From: Leptotrichia trevisanii DSM 22070
GTDB taxonomy: Bacteria; Fusobacteriota; Fusobacteriia; Fusobacteriales; Leptotrichiaceae
Length of the DNA stretch: 64,000 bases
Reading direction: 5' to 3'
NCBI RefSeq assembly: GCF_000482505.1
Contig: NZ_AXVL01000006.1
Coordinates: 30,641-94,640, forward strand
Shown here: piece by piece, positions 48,953-57,376 of the stretch
Numbering within the stretch: the stretch's first letter is position 1
How the letters are laid out: each line of letters begins with the position of its first letter
Translations under genes and position numbers: made by a program
The notes under the pieces: model-generated
The model's database searches: none
The model's input: the letters and a program-made list of their open reading frames with translations, nothing else
What the model was told of the DNA's origin: nothing

Positions 48953-49468
48953 TTACAATCCTCCAAATATTCTCTTAGCATTTTCAATATCCTTTTCGTC
49001 TGGATGTTTTACCGCTTCTGCCCATCTGGTTTCTCTTTCTGGAGTTGCTGCAAAAGGCCCTACTATACCCTGTTTTGTCATTTCACGGAATTTATTTATT
49101 AGATTAGGATCAATCGCACCTTGACATACAAATATTTTTTCTACAATGTTTCCATTTTTTTCCAATGATTTTTTTATTTCCTGAAAGCAGTTTTTCGCCC
49201 TGTCTGTTTCTGGATTTCCACCCATTGTTACAAAAAGTCCTAGTTTTTTATTTTTTAGCTTAGTCAAAAACTCTTTGGCTTTTTCATCAATCTCTCCCTT
49301 GTCAATCCAGCCACCAATAATAATTTTGTCAAATTTATTGAAATTTACTTTATTTATTTCATTCACATCCACTATTTTTTTATCTGTATCCTTTAAAGCT
49401 GAAAAAATGGCATCAGCTATTTTTCTTGTGTTTCCTGTTGATGTGGAAAAGACTACTAGGCTTGACAT
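48953..49468 (-). CDS. Flavodoxin-family protein of the haem-degradation operon
   Basis: FMN-binding flavodoxin fold: the phosphate loop is FSTSTGNTRKIADAIF (residues 7-22) and IIIGGWIDKGEID and VTMGGNPETDRAKN form the other FMN loops. At 171 aa it is longer than short-chain electron-transfer flavodoxins. Position right after HutW matches HmuF of Fusobacterium nucleatum, reported to reduce the anaerobilin product and move haem (established knowledge, recalled). The start lies inside the end of hutW (56-nt overlap) with GGAGG 8 nt upstream, so the two are coupled. Confidence 0.83.
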   Translation of the reverse strand: MSSLVVFSTSTGNTRKIADAIFSALKDTDKKIVDVNEINKVNFNKFDKIIIGGWIDKGEIDEKAKEFLTKLKNKKLGLFVTMGGNPETDRAKNCFQEIKKSLEKNGNIVEKIFVCQGAIDPNLINKFREMTKQGIVGPFAATPERETRWAEAVKHPDEKDIENAKRIFGGL

Positions 49469-50777
49469 CCTTTACACCTCCTAAACATTTTTTTAATATT
49501 GTTGCACTTATGTTGTTTCCCCAGAAAATTCCTTCTGGCGTGAGTTCTGTGTAAGTTTCATGAATTTTCAAGTATCCTTTTTTTTCAAAATTTTCAAAAA
49601 TCTTATAAATTTCATCAAACATTTCATCGGAAACATATTCTTTTAATTTGTCAAAATAAACTTTCGGATACTGTAAAAGTCCACTTATTCGTTTCATCTT
49701 CAGTTCATTTTCATCTGAAGAAATTGCATAAAATGCCTTGTCCTGACTTAATCTAAAAATTTCAAAATTATCAATTTTCCCGCCTGCACCTACTCCAATC
49801 GGCAGAATATCCTTCCCTTGATGTGTATTTCTTATATATCTATACTCATCTCTTCCTTTTCTGATAATTTTTGTATGCTCCATCACTTCATATTCTCCAC
49901 TTTCAAGCATACTTTTGAGAAAAGCATCATGCAGTTCAAAGTCTTTTTTCAGTTCATAATTCAACTCCAATGTGTTATTTCGTATATCCTTAGACATTTG
50001 AGAGCCTTCATAAATCATAAGCGAATAAAAACTTGTGCTATCTATTTTGAGATCCTTCACGATTCTCGCATCTTCCAGCACTTCCTCAACCGTTTCATCG
50101 GGATAATTGTAAATTATATCAGTACAAACCATTCCACTAAAACTCTCTTTAAGATTTTTCAGTCTTTTTACAGTTTCTTCCTTTGAAAAAGTCCTGTTTA
50201 GAATCTTCCTTCCTCTGTCAGAAAAAGTCTGAATTCCAACACTTAGCCGATTTACTCGGCCTTTTTCCAGAACTTTTATTTTTTTTGGATTTAAGTTGTG
50301 CAATGTTGTTTCAAATGTAAATTCACAGTCGTCTGTTAACGTAAAGTTATTATTTATAGCCTTTAAAATTCGTTCCAGCTGGTGTTCCTTATAAATAGTC
50401 GGTGTTCCACCACCAAAGAAAATTACATTTATTTTTTTACTTTTCATATAAGGTGTCTTTCCGTATTTTTCAAATTCTGAAACAAGAAAATTTGTGTAAT
50501 CTTCCAAATCATTGTCAATCTGCTTTCGGTTCAAGTTGCAAAATGAACAGATTTTATCGCAGTATGGAGTATGGACGTAAATTGTTCCAAGTTCATTTTC
50601 CGCAGGTTTCTGCATTCTTTCCAGCAGTTCCGCTTCTGTTCCAAATTTCTTATTTTTCCTGAAATAATCCGATACAATTCCCGCCGAATCATTATGTGAC
50701 TTAAATCTTTTTGGGAAAATTCCCTGCTCCTCCAAATTTGGCTCTGAAATTTCACCTTTTCGCATTTCCTTTGGCAT
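49413..50777 (-). CDS. hutW: Anaerobic haem-degrading radical SAM methyltransferase (HutW/ChuW family)
   Basis: It opens the haem ring without oxygen and releases iron, giving a linear tetrapyrrole. The 4Fe-4S motif is CDKICSFC (Cys73, Cys77, Cys80; CX3CX2C), followed by HemN-like VIFFGGGTPTIY (SAM glycine motif), SVGIQTFSDRGRKILNR and DIIYNYPDETVEEV. The C-terminal winged-helix/HemN_C region (ISGLLQYPKVYFDKLKEYVSDEM) follows. HemW is excluded by position and by the long N-terminal extension. It lies 6 nt after the HugZ-like gene and overlaps the flavodoxin. The family role is well established; activity here is inferred. Confidence 0.88.
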   Translation of the reverse strand: MPKEMRKGEISEPNLEEQGIFPKRFKSHNDSAGIVSDYFRKNKKFGTEAELLERMQKPAENELGTIYVHTPYCDKICSFCNLNRKQIDNDLEDYTNFLVSEFEKYGKTPYMKSKKINVIFFGGGTPTIYKEHQLERILKAINNNFTLTDDCEFTFETTLHNLNPKKIKVLEKGRVNRLSVGIQTFSDRGRKILNRTFSKEETVKRLKNLKESFSGMVCTDIIYNYPDETVEEVLEDARIVKDLKIDSTSFYSLMIYEGSQMSKDIRNNTLELNYELKKDFELHDAFLKSMLESGEYEVMEHTKIIRKGRDEYRYIRNTHQGKDILPIGVGAGGKIDNFEIFRLSQDKAFYAISSDENELKMKRISGLLQYPKVYFDKLKEYVSDEMFDEIYKIFENFEKKGYLKIHETYTELTPEGIFWGNNISATILKKCLGGVKDVKPSSLFHINRKHKKNS

Positions 50778-50783
50778 TTCTTT

Positions 50784-51563
50784 TCAGCTGTTTTCCGTTG
50801 CTCCCAGCGTAACTTCCACAACTCTTCTGTCCTTTGTGATGTCAAAAGCCTGTCTAGGTCCTTTCACATATCTTCCACTTGCCAATTTTGCTCTTACCAA
50901 GTGAAAAACTGGCACGTTTCTAGTCATTTGTATTGAAAAGTCATTTTTCTGAAATTCGTCCAAAATTTCATTATAGTAATCATTTTTTTCTAAAAATTGA
51001 ATTTCTGCATTATATGTAACTCTTTGTCGCATTGACGGCACCATTGCCTGTCCTTCATCCTGAATAAACAGCAAACTTGCTTTCCCATTTTTCTTAAAAT
51101 TTTCAAAATATGCTTCTGTTTCATTAACATATAAGTAACTGTCCCCGTGATACTTAAAAAATGGTGCATAACTTGCATTCGGCTCTCCTTCTTCCGACAC
51201 AGTTCCAATTATAACTGATTTAAAGTTTCCAATAAAATCACTTATTTCCATTTTCATTTTTTCTTCTTCTTGATGCCCTTTATCCTTATAATGCTCAGGT
51301 GCAGGTACATTCAAGGCTCTTCTTGCAATCTTTGCCATCTTTATCATTTCCAAATGAATCCCTTTAAAATCAGTCTTTTTCGTAAATTCAATCTGAACTC
51401 TCTCATTCCCGTTTACAAGTAAAGTCATCCCCTCTTCATTCACATCAATCAGCTTTGCTTCCTTCACATCTTCTCTCTTACAAAAATGCCTTACATACAA
51501 AGGCAAAACATCTTCATGATCGTTATTCATGTGATCCAAAATTCTTTCTATGCTTATATCCAT
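50784..51563 (-). CDS. HugZ/HutZ-like haem utilisation protein
   Basis: N-terminal DUF2470 domain (ILDHMNNDHEDVLPLYVRHFC) plus a split-barrel FMN-binding-type domain (NFKSVIIGTVSEEGEPNASYAPFFKYHGDSYLYVNETEAYFENFKKNGKASLLFI). FHLVRAKLASGRYVKGPRQAFDIT carries the C-terminal conserved portion, where HugZ has a haem-contacting histidine. Such proteins bind or degrade haem, and here pair with HutW as in other anaerobes. ATG at 51563 has GGAG 8 nt upstream; a GTG three codons earlier overlaps that site. Confidence 0.85.
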   Translation of the reverse strand: MDISIERILDHMNNDHEDVLPLYVRHFCKREDVKEAKLIDVNEEGMTLLVNGNERVQIEFTKKTDFKGIHLEMIKMAKIARRALNVPAPEHYKDKGHQEEEKMKMEISDFIGNFKSVIIGTVSEEGEPNASYAPFFKYHGDSYLYVNETEAYFENFKKNGKASLLFIQDEGQAMVPSMRQRVTYNAEIQFLEKNDYYNEILDEFQKNDFSIQMTRNVPVFHLVRAKLASGRYVKGPRQAFDITKDRRVVEVTLGATENS

Positions 51564-51609
51564 TTTTTTCACTCCTTCTATTTTGATTTAATAAATTATC
51601 CTCAAATTC

Positions 51610-52473
51610 TTACTTTGCAACCGCTTTTGCAATTTCTTCAATCTGATCAATAGTTCTTGGCGAACCTCTTAAAATTTGTGATGAATTTACAACAATAAAT
51701 TTGCTGTTTTTTATTGCATTCACATTTTTTAACTGTGGATTTGTAGCCACAATTTGAGATGGATTTGGTAATAATGTAATTATGATGTCTGGATTTTCCT
51801 TTATTATAAATTCAGGCGTTACAATCGGATTTCTCCCCTTCTGATTTTCTGCGATATTCTTAATATTCAGCAATTTCATTATGTCATTTGGTAAATTATC
51901 GTTTCCAAACACCATAAGCGGGGAAACTGACATAACAAACAGTCCTTTTTTATTACCAGTTGCTATCTTTTTAATTTCTTCCAGCTTTGCTTTTTTTTCA
52001 GCGATTATTTTATTTGCTTCATTTTCTTTCCCAAGCATTTTTGCCACTTCCAGAAAATTGGTAAATATTTCTTCTATCGAATTTGCCTGAACTCTTTTTG
52101 TCTCAATATTATTTGATTTAAGCCCATTATTCAACTCTTCGCCTGTAAGGGCTGACATTATAACCAGATCAGGCTTTAGGGCTATTATTTTTTCAAGCGA
52201 CGGCTTCATAAAAGTTCCCACACTCTCAAGTTTTGCAACCTTTTCTTCAGGCCATACCTTTGAACGCTCCAAATTGGCAACTCCCACGATTTTATCTTCT
52301 GCTCCAAGCATATAAATCATTTCAACAGTCGCAGGATCCAGCACAACAATCCTATTATATTTTTTATTTTCCCTCTTTTTACCATTTTCAGCATTTTTCT
52401 TTGAACAAGAAATCACAAATATTGAAATAACTAGCAATGCAAAATAAAAAGAGTTTTTTATTATTTTTTTCAT
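51610..52473 (-). CDS. Haem/iron-siderophore ABC transporter binding lipoprotein
   Basis: Cluster A-III (BtuF/FhuD/HmuT-type) binding protein. The lipobox is ISCSKK with acylated Cys at residue 23. RIVVLDPATVEMIYMLGAEDKIVGVANLERS is the family N-terminal lobe, GTFMKPSLEKIIALKPDLVIMS the linker helix, and FIIKENPDIIITLLPNPSQ the C-lobe. The ATG at 52473 gives a clean signal peptide. Haem as ligand is inferred from the downstream HugZ-HutW-flavodoxin genes; a siderophore or cobalamin cannot be excluded. Confidence 0.85.
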   Translation of the reverse strand: MKKIIKNSFYFALLVISIFVISCSKKNAENGKKRENKKYNRIVVLDPATVEMIYMLGAEDKIVGVANLERSKVWPEEKVAKLESVGTFMKPSLEKIIALKPDLVIMSALTGEELNNGLKSNNIETKRVQANSIEEIFTNFLEVAKMLGKENEANKIIAEKKAKLEEIKKIATGNKKGLFVMSVSPLMVFGNDNLPNDIMKLLNIKNIAENQKGRNPIVTPEFIIKENPDIIITLLPNPSQIVATNPQLKNVNAIKNSKFIVVNSSQILRGSPRTIDQIEEIAKAVAK

Positions 52474-52491
52474 TTTCTCCATCCTTTCCTA

Positions 52492-53301
52492 TTAAATTTT
52501 TTTAGGTATTACATACAAAAGTTCATTATTTTCCACAATCTCACATTCAAATCCATAAATTTCAGAAAAAACTTCCTTTTTGTAAAGCTCCTTTGGACTC
52601 CCTGAATATGCAATTTTTCCATCCTTTAAAAACATCACATTATCACAGTACATCGAAGCCAGATTCAGATCGTGTAAAACCATAACAGCCGTAATCTTTT
52701 TCTCCTTCACAAAATCCGATGTAAGCTTCATAATTTCAAGAGCATAATTCATATCCAATGCAGAAGTCGGCTCATCCAGTAGAATAATCCTCGTTTCCTG
52801 CACTAATGCCCTTGCCAGCAAAGCACGCTGAAATTCTCCACCTGAAAGTGAAAAAATCGATCTGTCCCTAAATTTTTCAAGTTGCAACTTTTCCAAAATC
52901 TCATTTACCTTCCGCTCATCTTCTTTATCAAAACCAATCCACTTATTCTTAATATGTGGCGTACGTCCCATATAAACCATTTCAATTACACTTATCGGCA
53001 TATTCAAAGCTGACTTTTGAGGAACAAAACTTATTATTTTTGCCATTTCCTTAGGACTATACAAACTGATATTTTTGTCATAAATCTCAATATTCCCCGT
53101 TTCTATCGGAAAATATTTCAAAACCATTTTCAAAAGTGTCGATTTTCCACTCCCATTTGCACCAAGAATCCCGACAAATTCACCTTTTTTTATATTTATA
53201 TTTAATCCATCAATTATCTTTTTTTGGGAATTATCATAGCTAAAACTTACATTTTTTATCGAAATTTCTGAATTATTATTTCCACTACTCATCCTATCCA
53301 T
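52492..53301 (-). CDS. ABC transporter ATPase (haem/FecE type)
   Basis: Walker A GANGSGKST (47-55), signature SLSGGEFQRALLARALV, Walker B RIILLDEPTSALD and H-loop VMVLHDLNLASMYCDNV. The FecE/HmuV/BtuD-type Q-loop region is IISFVPQKSALNMPISVIEMVYMGRTPH. Its ATG (AAGGA 6 nt upstream) lies inside the end of the permease gene, an 8-nt overlap. It powers import through the permease. Confidence 0.92.
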   Translation of the reverse strand: MDRMSSGNNNSEISIKNVSFSYDNSQKKIIDGLNINIKKGEFVGILGANGSGKSTLLKMVLKYFPIETGNIEIYDKNISLYSPKEMAKIISFVPQKSALNMPISVIEMVYMGRTPHIKNKWIGFDKEDERKVNEILEKLQLEKFRDRSIFSLSGGEFQRALLARALVQETRIILLDEPTSALDMNYALEIMKLTSDFVKEKKITAVMVLHDLNLASMYCDNVMFLKDGKIAYSGSPKELYKKEVFSEIYGFECEIVENNELLYVIPKKI

Positions 53302-54322
53302 CTTTTTTCCTTCTTATCGCCAAATATAGAAAAAATGGTGCTCCAAAAAATGAAGTTACCACTCCTATCGGAATTTCCGTCGGTGCCAAAATTGTACGTC
53401 CAATCGTATCACAAATCAGCAAAAACAGCCCTCCACCCAATGTTGCTAAAGGCAGTAACCTAGTATTACTTCCACTTTTTAGCACAAGCCTTACCGTATG
53501 TGGTGCAATCAGCCCAACAAATCCTATCATTCCAGTAAATGCCACAGAAAAGCCAACAATCAGTGCCGAAACAATCAATAAATTCCTTTTTAGCCCATCC
53601 ACGTTCACTCCAAGCGAATGTGCCTCTTCATCCCCACTCATCAGTAAATCCATCTCATATCTTTTCAAATAAAAATAAACAACAGAAACTACAAGAGGTA
53701 TCATAAGAACTCCGATTTTCAGCCAAGAAGCACTTCCCATATATCCCATCATCCATGTTACTATTCTAAAAGAATCCTGCCCAATCAAATACATACTGAA
53801 CGACGTAAATGCCCCTAAAAAAGATGAAATCGCAATCCCAACAATTAGAAGCACCGCCACATCCGTCCTAGTCCTGCTTCTTGAAATCCTAAAAATTATC
53901 AATGCCACGATAACCGATACAATAAACCCACAAATTCCATACATAACATCAGGAAAATTAAGGACATACGCAATAACAGCTCCAAGCGTAGCACTAGCCG
54001 AAATACCAATTATATAAGGATCCGCCAATGGATTCTGAAAAACCGACTGCACAACTGTCCCCGAACTAGCCAGCAGCATCCCAATCAATACCGCCATAAT
54101 AATTCTCGGAAACCTCACATCAATTATTATTGATTTCATCGATTCATCCCCCATTTTCCCACCTAAAAGACTCCTAAATATATCTTTTGCCGAAATATCC
54201 ACAGTTCCTATTTTCAAAGACAAAAATGCCACTACAATTATAAAAATTGTTATTCCAGAATACATTTTCCACGTATTACTATCACGCTTTTTACATTTTA
54301 CTTTTCTACTTTCAATTTCCAT
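53294..54322 (-). CDS. ABC transporter permease (FecCD/HmuU type)
   Basis: Inner-membrane permease of the BtuC/FecCD family, about ten spans. GTVVQSVFQNPLADPYIIGISASATLGAV is the near-invariant FecCD motif, followed by FTGMIGFVGLIAPHTVRLVLKSGSNTRLLPLATLGGGLFLLICDTIGRTI. The length of 342 aa is normal. It is separated from the TonB receptor by 603 nt holding repeat R3 and a terminator. Confidence 0.93.
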   Translation of the reverse strand: MEIESRKVKCKKRDSNTWKMYSGITIFIIVVAFLSLKIGTVDISAKDIFRSLLGGKMGDESMKSIIIDVRFPRIIMAVLIGMLLASSGTVVQSVFQNPLADPYIIGISASATLGAVIAYVLNFPDVMYGICGFIVSVIVALIIFRISRSRTRTDVAVLLIVGIAISSFLGAFTSFSMYLIGQDSFRIVTWMMGYMGSASWLKIGVLMIPLVVSVVYFYLKRYEMDLLMSGDEEAHSLGVNVDGLKRNLLIVSALIVGFSVAFTGMIGFVGLIAPHTVRLVLKSGSNTRLLPLATLGGGLFLLICDTIGRTILAPTEIPIGVVTSFFGAPFFLYLAIRRKKDG

Positions 54323-54449
54323 CTTTTATTCCTTATCTGCATTTATTAATATTTTTTTCTTAATTTATATTAATCTTTTTTTATTTAAGACTATTAATTC
54401 CATTTTTTACAATCTTGCTTAAGAATTTTTTATTAAAATAACTGTTGTA

Positions 54450-54830
54450 ATTAAACTAAAATCGTCGTGATTTTTTTGAAATGAAAACTACTGTTTGAGC
54501 TTTTTCAAAATATTAAAATTGCAATTATTTAAAGAGTTGACAATAACTTTTATTAAAAAGCGAGTTTAGTTTTCGTAGTAATTCAGGTTTATCCAAACAA
54601 TAAATGTTTAGACTACTTTCCCAAATAAAATTTGGGAATATTTCAAAAAAATGCTTAGACAAGCTGGGATTAGTGCGTAGAACTTTCGCCAAAATCTTCA
54701 GATGTTATAATTTAAAGAAATTGAAATAACTAATACTGCGAAATAAAAGGGGATGGCGATTGATCCCGTTTACACATAAAAAAAGAAAAAATATAAAAAT
54801 TATTGAAAAAATATTTATTAATAACTGTAT
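54450..54830 (-). repeat. Intergenic repeat R3, copy 2
   Basis: Collinear with 41890-42150: ATTAAACTAAAATCGTCGTG (54451 on), TTTCAAAAAAATGCTTAGAC (54641 on), then the hairpin and ATAAAAAAAGAAAA block (54746-54830). It lies just downstream of the TonB receptor gene. The rest of 54323-54925 holds no gene I could see. Confidence 0.6.
54741..54768 (-). terminator. Terminator after the TonB receptor gene
   Basis: On the minus strand GGGAT and ATCCC arms with an 8-nt loop are followed by CCTTTTATTT. About 75 nt further a conserved GCTTGTCTAAGC mini-hairpin is followed by ATTTTTTT. Confidence 0.6.
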
Positions 54831-54925
54831 CTTATAAAAATTAACAATTTTATTTATTTATAAAATACAGCCAAACAACTTTATAACAATTGCTTGACTG
54901 CCATTTTCCATATTTAAAATTATTT

Positions 54926-56914
54926 TTAGAAATTATAACTTACACCAATATAATATGTTCTTTCAGATTCAGGAACATAACTATCTCCACTTTTATATTT
55001 ATAGTATTTTTTATCAAATACGTTTTTAATTCCTGCTTGCACTCCTAAACCTGTTTTATGAGCGTAACTTATCCCTAAATCTGTTGTAGAGTAACCTTTG
55101 ATTTTTTCGTAGTCGCTATCCACAGAATTTGAGAAGTAGTTAAAATCCGCCATTAAATTTAGTCCTTTTACAATTTCATAATTCGTTCCTAAAGTTGCTT
55201 TTGTTTTTGATACATAAGGAATTTTTTTATTTTTATCTGTACCCTTACTAATTTTTGCATCCACATAAGAAACTGACTCATTTACTCTAAAAGGCCCAAA
55301 ATATTGCTCTGCAAACAGTTCCACACCTTTTCTTTCTGTTTCCTGCAAGTTTTTATATGTCCAGTTTATTCCATGCCCTAACATATTTATAAGAATTTCA
55401 TCATTTTTCTTAGTGTAAAATCCTGTCAAGCTCACAAATGATGGCCCAACCATATCTTTTATACCAATTTCATAAGTATCATATTTTTCAGATTTTAAAT
55501 TATTTAATACATATCCGTATCTTGCTGATTTATCTACCATTTCTGTTGGACTTGGTGATCTGTATCCTCTTTCGTATTTTGCATAAACATTTCCTGTATC
55601 AGAATATTTAAAGTTCAAACCTGTTTCGTAAGCACTATTATTTTTTTTAGACTTTTTATTTATAACATTTGTTCCGTCTGTTCTATAAATGTCATAATCA
55701 GCATGCTCGTATCTGTATCCCAAAATTCCATCCAATTTATTTGTAAATGAGTGTCTACCTTGTACAAATGCTGAATGTGTATTTTTTTGTAAATCAATAT
55801 CAATAGTAGATGTTGGGAACAGCCTTCTGTTTCTCATATACATTGCTCCATAGGCACTTCTGTTTGAGTTATTTTTTATATATTCATACCCAAAAATAAT
55901 ATCTCCCACTCCATAATTATACTTACCTTTTAAGTCAACTCCTGTTTTTCTATCCTTAAATTGTCCATCCGTCTTATGTGTCATTCTTCCAGCAGGCGAA
56001 TCCTGATCATAATCCCTAATTGTTTTCTGATTATATCCTAACAATGAAAATGTCAAATTATCAGTTGGTTTAATGTCATAGTTCAAGCTATATTCTGTTC
56101 TGTCCAAAGTAGAATCTGTCAAAGTAGTTCCAGGCTGTTTTCTGTCTTGTTCAAGCTGAACCTTAGTTATTCCACTTGTTTCATTTGATTCTTCCTTATA
56201 TCTTGTCGCTCTAAATCTCAAAGTTTGATTATCAGCGATATTATATGTAAATCCACCTCTTAAATTTTCACCATCTCTTTTATCTCCACGTCTATACCCG
56301 TTCCCATTAACATTTTCGTATGCCAGATCCAGCAAGAAATTATCTGTAAATTTGATACTTGTCCCAAATCCAAATTTATTTGTATCGAATGAACTGTTTT
56401 GATAATAAACTTTGTTTTTTACAGCTTCTTCCTGTCCTTTTTTTGTAATGATGTTAATTACTCCACCAGCAGTTCCTCCACCATAAAGCACAGTTCCTCC
56501 ACCGTTAATAATTTCTATTTTCTGAATATCTTCCACTGAAACAGAATTTAGTGGTAAAATCGCATGCGACATATCAAGTATGTTTAAAGGCGAACCGTCC
56601 ACAAGAACTTTTACATTTTTAGCAGCTCCCTGAACTCCCTGTCCTCTGACATCTACAATATATCCAAAAGCATTATTTACAAAATTCACTCCTGGAGTAC
56701 GTTTCAATATTTCCTCCACAGTATTATATCCCTTATCATGTATATCCTGAGCCGTTACAATTGTCGTATTCTTAATCTGATTACTTTGAACATCATCAAA
56801 TCCCGTAGCCGTTACAACCGACTCTTCCAATTTTACATTAAACGTATCATTTTCATCCCCAAACGCCATCATTCCAACTACAATAAAACTCAAAACCGCT
56901 AATTTTTTTAACAT
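54926..56914 (-). CDS. TonB-dependent outer-membrane receptor (probable haem/iron)
   Basis: Signal peptide MLKKLAVLSFIVVGMMAFG, a TonB-box-like EESVVTATG near the mature N-terminus, then the plug domain (QDIHDKGYNTVEEILKRTPGVNFVNN; VKVLVDGSPLNILDMS; IEIINGGGTVLYGGGTAGGVINIITKKG) and a 22-strand barrel ending YIGVSYNF with terminal Phe. 662 aa, normal for haem, cobalamin or siderophore receptors. No FRAP/NPNL haem signature was recognised, so the haem assignment rests on context: the importer and haem-degradation genes follow on the same strand. TonB/ExbBD are not in this window. Confidence 0.9.
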   Translation of the reverse strand: MLKKLAVLSFIVVGMMAFGDENDTFNVKLEESVVTATGFDDVQSNQIKNTTIVTAQDIHDKGYNTVEEILKRTPGVNFVNNAFGYIVDVRGQGVQGAAKNVKVLVDGSPLNILDMSHAILPLNSVSVEDIQKIEIINGGGTVLYGGGTAGGVINIITKKGQEEAVKNKVYYQNSSFDTNKFGFGTSIKFTDNFLLDLAYENVNGNGYRRGDKRDGENLRGGFTYNIADNQTLRFRATRYKEESNETSGITKVQLEQDRKQPGTTLTDSTLDRTEYSLNYDIKPTDNLTFSLLGYNQKTIRDYDQDSPAGRMTHKTDGQFKDRKTGVDLKGKYNYGVGDIIFGYEYIKNNSNRSAYGAMYMRNRRLFPTSTIDIDLQKNTHSAFVQGRHSFTNKLDGILGYRYEHADYDIYRTDGTNVINKKSKKNNSAYETGLNFKYSDTGNVYAKYERGYRSPSPTEMVDKSARYGYVLNNLKSEKYDTYEIGIKDMVGPSFVSLTGFYTKKNDEILINMLGHGINWTYKNLQETERKGVELFAEQYFGPFRVNESVSYVDAKISKGTDKNKKIPYVSKTKATLGTNYEIVKGLNLMADFNYFSNSVDSDYEKIKGYSTTDLGISYAHKTGLGVQAGIKNVFDKKYYKYKSGDSYVPESERTYYIGVSYNF

Positions 56915-57054: not shown

Positions 57055-57083
57055 ATTTTACTACAAAATATTATTGATGTCAA
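57055..57083 (-). promoter_or_regulatory. Promoter of the TonB receptor/haem operon
   Basis: TTGACA, 17-nt spacer and TAAAAT on the minus strand. The -35 overlaps ATTGATGTCAAT, a 5-2-5 palindrome (57074-57085) that could be an operator. The leader to the receptor start is about 135 nt. No cobalamin riboswitch was recognised. Confidence 0.7.
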
Positions 57084-57096
57084 TATTTTATTTTGA

Positions 57097-57123
57097 TTGA
57101 TAATTTAAAAAAAATGATATAAT
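57097..57123 (+). promoter_or_regulatory. Divergent plus-strand promoter (extended -10)
   Basis: TATAAT preceded by TGA, with TTGATA 15 nt or TTGATT 19 nt upstream. The downstream AAACCCTAAGGGTTT (57136-57150) is a perfect 15-bp palindrome just past the predicted start site, a typical operator place. Confidence 0.6.
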
Positions 57124-57129
57124 AAAATT

Positions 57130-57212
57130 ACCTTAAAACCCTAAGGGTTTAAACTATTATAAATTGTTAAAAAAAGTGTTACAAATTAGGCTGGAAATAT
57201 TCAGTCTTTTTT
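57130..57212 (+). ncRNA. Putative small RNA or attenuated leader
   Basis: It runs from the predicted start of the promoter above to a terminator: GGCTG and CAGTC arms (57189-57206, one G-T pair) followed by TTTTTT. About 82 nt with no ORF. It could be an sRNA, or a leader attenuator for the 14-codon ORF at 57276. Prediction only. Confidence 0.4.
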
Positions 57213-57275
57213 GTTATAACAAATAAGTGAGTTTTAACACAACTCATAAACAATTTAATAATAGGAGATGGCAAG

Positions 57276-57320
57276 ATGGTAGACATTATTGCAATTATTA
57301 AATTATTTATTACAGTTTAA
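57276..57320 (+). CDS. Putative 14-residue peptide ORF
   Basis: MVDIIAIIKLFITV is preceded by AGGAGAT 6 nt before the ATG. It is highly hydrophobic with one Asp and one Lys in amphipathic spacing, similar in look to phenol-soluble-modulin-type peptides but shorter. A hairpin (GAGTTTTAACACAACTC) precedes the ribosome site and a terminator follows at 57360. Coding is unproven. It could be a leader peptide, though no ordinary plus-strand gene follows. Confidence 0.4.
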   Translation: MVDIIAIIKLFITV

Positions 57321-57359
57321 GCAGATAATCCTAATCCTATAATTTCACCTCTACCCCTC

Positions 57360-57376
57360 AGCCCTTAGGGCTTTTA
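57360..57376 (+). terminator. Terminator after the 14-codon ORF
   Basis: AGCCC-TTA-GGGCT followed by TTTT, 40 nt after the stop codon. Confidence 0.6.

Follow-up and report, generated by a model that had tools for sequence, protein, structure and literature searches.

Positions 57,055 to 57,376 of the window (the whole 64,000-nucleotide stretch of Leptotrichia trevisanii DSM 22070 DNA that was analysed) are a damaged copy of a module that has not been described before and that occurs in multiple copies in Leptotrichia and its relatives. Very probably, the element is a two-gene module in which a small RNA (sRNA) silences the mRNA of a tiny peptide, and which most likely represents a type I-like toxin-antitoxin system. 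P1, the promoter of the first gene, would give rise to a short sRNA that stops at a strong terminator, and P2, a promoter fused to this terminator, would drive an mRNA for a membrane peptide of 18–21 residues.

Anatomy and distribution of the element

Used as a query in a whole-genome search, the window stretch gives 11 matches in its own genome, and the element is present in 13 of the 13 Leptotrichia genomes searched, several of which carry tandem arrays with a period of ~290 bp, other copies being dispersed. A covariance model with 22 copies as input, run over 98 Fusobacteriota genomes, detects it in 22 of them, namely the 13 Leptotrichia genomes and nine from five other Leptotrichiaceae genera; among the 98 genomes, those outside Leptotrichiaceae gave no match under stricter filters that may miss weak copies. 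Rfam returned nothing above threshold for the window copy and five family loci.

The anatomy seen in the window (Table 1) recurs in dozens of copies, far above chance. On a single strand, P1 is followed by a short 5' hairpin, an unpaired stretch of ~35–40 nt and a terminator, which make up the sRNA half (the sRNA is ~85 nt long in the family), and then by the mRNA half, in which P2 (TGTTATAAT) is fused to that terminator and precedes a leader with a hairpin, the Shine-Dalgarno (SD) sequence AAGGAGG, the ORF, a CCTC motif and a terminator hairpin. P1 scores at least 11 in 40 of 46 copies, compared with 0 of 46 after shuffling. A minus-strand antisense promoter opposite the ORF or the 3' UTR was also sought and is not conserved, being present in one of the 46 copies. 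Separate transcription of the sRNA is predicted from P1, the terminator and P2.

Most of these parts had been recognised in the initial annotation, which described back-to-back promoters, a short RNA with a T-tailed hairpin, a second hairpin, a ribosome site and a terminator 3' of the ORF. All of them are present, although the last hairpin is weak, and the view that a small RNA and a small peptide ORF stand here and serve no ordinary gene is supported as well. The antisense relation between sRNA and leader, the terminator-fused P2 and the multi-copy family were all overlooked. The palindrome placed at the predicted RNA start has two perfect 6-bp arms, but with TAA between them it is not the perfect DNA palindrome that had been claimed, and the ORF, whose length of 14 codons was given correctly, is a frame-shifted form of the 20-codon family ORF.

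Table 1. Features of the window copy and the adjoining receptor promoter; the sRNA 5' end was placed by inference ~7 nt past the -10
Feature	Position	Strand	Basis or remark
Receptor promoter, TTGACA-17-TAAAAT	57083-57055	minus	
P1, sRNA promoter: TTGATA (57097-57102), 15-nt spacer, TG-A-TATAAT extended -10 TGATATAAT	57097..57123	+	
Predicted antitoxin-like sRNA, ~80-85 nt	57130..57212	+	P1 position, terminator, family conservation
sRNA 5' hairpin AAACCC-TAA-GGGTTT (AAACCCTAAGGGTTT)	57136..57150	+	
Antisense arm 1	57154..57168	+	Partner: leader 57249-57264, across SD
Antisense arm 2	57176..57187	+	Partner: leader hairpin and loop, 57230-57240
sRNA intrinsic terminator, T-tailed hairpin GGCTGGAAATATTCAGTC then T6	57189..57212	+	Near invariant in family
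P2, mRNA extended -10, TGTTATAAC	57212..57220	+	TGTTATAAT in nearly all other copies
Leader hairpin GAGTT-TTAACAC-AACTC	57229..57245	+	Copy-specific pairing sequence in loop
Leader target for antisense arm 1	57249..57264	+	Extends into SD
SD AGGAGA	57263..57268	+	Family AAGGAGG
Peptide ORF MVDIIAIIKLFITV, 14 codons	57276..57320	+	Frame-shifted version of 20-codon ORF MVDFIAIFILFVIIYYSLNR
Relic of family C-terminus, out of frame (IIYYSLSR, then stop)	57302..57328	+	Marks frameshift; comparison with family copies
3' UTR anti-SD region TTTCACCTCTACCCCTC	57343..57359	+	SD pairing weaker than in family
mRNA terminator hairpin AGCCC-TTA-GGGCT (57360-57372) then TTTT	57360..57376	+	Weak; family-conserved

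A genome-wide search for the palindrome, as the initial annotation had proposed, finds CCCTAAGGG eight times, seven times within elements and once in a decayed copy whose P2 is deleted. Hairpins of this type are kept at the 5' end of the sRNA in most copies and are absent from the most distant genus, for which reason the idea of an obligatory pairing between the 5' CCCTAAGGG hairpin and the 3' CCCTTAGGG terminator was dropped.

The ORFs are 18–21 codons long, with a mean GRAVY of 1.55, and the groups into which the peptides fall include MVDFIAIFILFVIIYYSLNR, MNNDDIIRLLIILYIIYRITR, MENVITIIVMMYIIYRLTK and MRTLLIVVILFIAISKILY. Pooled dN/dS values of 0.30, 0.18, 0.29 and 0.23 in four groups (some with few sequences) indicate purifying selection, which makes it very probable that the ORFs are genuinely coding. 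The three intact peptides scanned gave no match to Pfam or NCBIfam models; the product is a tiny membrane peptide, which is probably toxic. It is hardly credible that the family is a non-coding REP- or MITE-like repeat with an accidental ORF, as could be suggested by its dispersed and tandem copies and the short inverted repeats at both ends, given dN/dS values of 0.18–0.30 and antisense arms that, unlike a conserved repeat, change together and stay complementary.

Pairing between the sRNA and the mRNA leader

Two blocks in the unpaired part of the sRNA are antisense to the leader of its own mRNA; one targets the leader hairpin with its loop, the other the 12–16 nt directly before and into the SD. 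Although the block sequences differ greatly among copies, the complementarity is kept: for 25 Leptotrichia leaders, own pairs average −20.2 kcal/mol, against −8.8 kcal/mol for all others. The set was extended to 48 leaders and 58 sRNAs, with the cognate partner defined as the sRNA of best computed duplex energy in the genome and the remaining sRNAs of the same genome as the control. For every one of the 48 leaders, a strong partner is encoded in the same genome (mean −22.8 kcal/mol, sd 2.9, weakest −17.0), whereas the non-cognate sRNAs average −8.3 kcal/mol (sd 2.5, n = 159), and the longest Watson-Crick run on the SD side averages 11.9 nt in cognate and 5.4 nt in non-cognate pairs. Many arm positions show several pair types across copies, an illustration drawn from predicted duplexes rather than a covariation test. 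The arms of the window copy pair with their leader at −17.8 kcal/mol, the best of 34 sRNAs, and none of 1000 dinucleotide shuffles was as good.

The partner lies directly upstream for 44 of the 48 leaders and in another copy for the other four. Two copies 1.8 kb apart in genome G011 have swapped partners reciprocally, and a leader in G009 and another in G079 have their match in a nearby orphan sRNA, the adjacent arms not matching. These four leaders indicate that the sRNA acts in trans, and such swapped partners are what would be expected if it does so and if recombination between copies, taking place at the conserved terminator, is only tolerated as long as a cognate sRNA is still present. 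Recognition by the sRNA would begin at the leader hairpin loop and extend as pairing along the leader over the SD, and the resulting duplex would block ribosomes and probably be exposed to RNase III. Since the loop and arm sequences differ among copies, each sRNA would silence only its own mRNA. Besides a free sRNA working in trans, read-through from P1 would yield an mRNA with its antisense sequence attached in cis.

This last product leads to an alternative in which there is a single transcript whose 5' leader, the sRNA part, folds onto the SD, as a cis-only attenuator with no free RNA acting in trans. The arms and the terminator are indeed nested on one strand, the read-through RNA would fold in this way according to cofolding, and in most copies the duplex could act in cis alone. 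Such an attenuator is nevertheless improbable, as P2 is conserved right after the terminator, the four leaders with cognate arms in other copies are mismatched to the arms beside them, and orphan sRNA copies are retained in which there is no mRNA to attenuate.

In the favoured reading, namely a module silenced by a separate sRNA, the full-length mRNA would be closed by a further structure, in which the CCTC beside the 3' terminator covers the SD until the 3' end is lost. Of 41 modelled mRNAs, 40 are predicted to have the SD paired with the 3' UTR, nearly always at the CCTC before the terminator, and the predicted mean unpaired value of the SD goes from 0.14 in full-length mRNAs to 0.50 with the 3' UTR removed. 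The main support for the modelled closure is the conservation of CCTC across genera.

Comparison with known toxin-antitoxin systems

In its mechanism the element would be type I-like, and in its gene order type III-like. As in type I, the peptide is small and hydrophobic (the usual limit is under 60 aa) and the sRNA is complementary to the mRNA. TADB 3.0 demands that a type I sRNA lie on the strand opposite the toxin (PMC10767807), whereas here sRNA and ORF share one strand, the sRNA being upstream, so the element would not be filed as type I there. The order of promoter, RNA antitoxin, terminator and toxin on one strand is that of type III (PMC4147584) and is shared with ToxIN and CptIN, but in those systems the RNA neutralises a protein toxin, an RNase, by binding it, in contrast to the peptide of ~20 residues and the antisense RNA found here, which also has no tandem repeats. 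Candidate ToxI RNAs have been reported for Leptotrichia (PMC8040213).

Among type I systems, Ibs/Sib of E. coli shares with the element a hydrophobic peptide of 19 residues, multicopy tandem loci and an sRNA that covers the SD and has recognition domains. Sib, however, is encoded opposite and across ibs, whereas the sRNA of the element lies upstream on the same strand, with its own terminator and no overlap with the ORF. The likeness is mainly that of one outgroup peptide, MMKLIVITILVVAITRVTY of genome G087, which scores 38 against IbsC (MG1655 record), compared with 22.9 ± 3.8 for shuffled sequences (0 of 500 as good). As this was the best of seven tried and the composition is strongly hydrophobic, common descent is not claimed; most family peptides are not convincingly IbsC-like, and together with the different arrangement and the absence of an Rfam match, the element falls outside Ibs/Sib.

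In non-overlapping type I systems, a separate sRNA gene adjoins the toxin and is complementary to its 5' UTR (PMC4147584). The element resembles TisB/IstR-1, ShoB/OhsC, Zor/Orz and DinQ/AgrB in this respect, but their sRNAs are divergent and pair away from the SD, while that of the element is in tandem on the same strand and pairs into it. With its predicted 3' closure of the mRNA and leader recognition, the element also resembles hok/Sok and aapA1/IsoA1, whose antisense RNAs, unlike its own, overlap on the opposite strand. In aapA1/IsoA1, the full-length mRNA is closed by a 3' element, 3' processing is presumed, and the antisense RNA recognises the leader. The same features are described for hok (PMC4147584), which also has a leader ORF, of which none was seen in the element.

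According to a 2025 paper on a cyanobacterial case, type I modules had until then been known from three phyla only (PMC12390103); the hosts given in the literature consulted are Proteobacteria, Firmicutes, Tenericutes and now one cyanobacterium. The literature searched, which excludes subscription journals, contained no account of a type I module from Leptotrichia or any other Fusobacteriota. We lean towards regarding the element as the first family of type I-like toxin-antitoxins in Fusobacteriota, one marked by an upstream sRNA on the same strand, a terminator-promoter fusion, loop and arm sequences that act as copy barcodes and diverge in arrays, and recombination at the conserved terminator that gives rise to partner swaps and antitoxin-only copies. 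Searches that, like TADB 3.0, require opposite strands would overlook a same-strand family whose predicted toxins have ~20 residues. Its dozens of co-changing sRNA-leader pairs, with swaps and orphans, allow direct tests of antisense specificity and of how it evolves, and they offer many orthogonal translational switches. Leptotrichia is the source of a much-used Cas13a, which lends practical interest to its toxin modules.

Decay of the window copy and genomic setting

In comparison with the family, the window ORF has suffered a net loss of 10 nt, which shifts its frame and shortens it from 20 codons to 14. In addition, P2 has the sequence TATAAC, and the 3' lock is not as clear-cut. A frame-shifted IbsC remained toxic (PMC7192591); since short hydrophobic peptides of this kind can thus stay active, loss of function is likely for the window peptide but not certain. 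The sRNA may still be made from the window copy, in spite of the damage to P2 and the peptide, and, as the modelled arms still pair, it may be functional.

The minus-strand genes at 49413–56914 encode a TonB receptor, a FecCD permease, an ABC ATPase, a binding protein, a PNPOx/DUF2470 (HugZ-like) protein and a radical SAM protein, and apparently form a haem-uptake operon. The initial annotation had suggested that the unit may be an sRNA that responds to haem or iron and comes with a peptide. Taken as control of the receptor by this sRNA and a dual-function peptide, that reading would suit both the operon and the divergent promoters shared with the receptor gene. This reading is very unlikely: the element is scattered over many unrelated sites, its conserved pairing is that of the sRNA with its own leader, and among family sRNAs it is the window's own upstream sRNA that best matches the window leader. 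The initial annotation had named lack of conservation in sister strains with the same receptor as grounds for refutation, and this is what is found. The named relatives of the receptor are from Leptotrichia; beside it, Leptotrichia sp. oral taxon 879 carries a degraded remnant without an ORF, and in L. hongkongensis a gene that by eye is flavin-reductase-like replaces the element after a similar -10. Given the frameshift, the TATAAC of P2 and the remnant or absence in these two relatives, the window copy is a decaying one, and its position at the haem operon is incidental. Just upstream of the receptor in L. hongkongensis (L057), an element-type -10 and TACCTTAAAA precede the flavin-reductase-like gene; P1 may have been captured, or an older promoter may be shared.

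Elsewhere in the family, the two halves have fared differently. The copies found with an mRNA but lacking the sRNA or P2 are damaged: one is without P2 and has a mutated SD, one is decayed and two have P2 deleted, mRNA-only copies having been sought with two sequence queries within the genus. Copies of the sRNA without an mRNA are kept, and this asymmetry is what a toxin-antitoxin system would leave behind. Among the orphan sRNA-like copies, those at L045 ~941 (−) and L050 ~869 (+) have intact hairpins and the leader loop, with neither SD nor ORF; they are conserved in two species, each time ahead of the same converging gene, and possibly represent a separate regulatory RNA. At L041 ~270 (−) and L049 ~853 (+), the terminator of the module, again fused to TGTTATAAT, precedes an apparent lipoprotein gene, and the sRNA arms are missing.

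The toxicity of the peptide is itself inferred, and a smaller though appreciable chance is left that this RNA-regulated membrane peptide is no toxin but acts in signalling or as a modulator of a membrane protein. Purifying selection and the presence in all Leptotrichia genomes searched would fit such a role, whereas the tandem arrays, the double lock on translation, the broken mRNA-only copies and the conjugative-like island typify type I systems. The island in question lies at L106 2755–13898, where four modules are found among TrbL/VirB6-like, S26 peptidase, topoisomerase, Toprim primase-like and ArdC-like proteins, and is a probable conjugative element. Plasmid, phage and IMG/VR collections, searched with one query each, which may miss distant copies, gave no match to the element, so a role in selfish maintenance would rest on this one island.

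Tandem arrays also adjoin very long genes at L105 and L051, which share the N-terminus MSNNLRQIAKDLRSFVKRCKDVHYSDSLL and of which the tested stretch has no Pfam match. At L105, the MSNNLRQIAKDLRSFVKRCKDVHYSDSLL N-terminus is found on both sides of the array.
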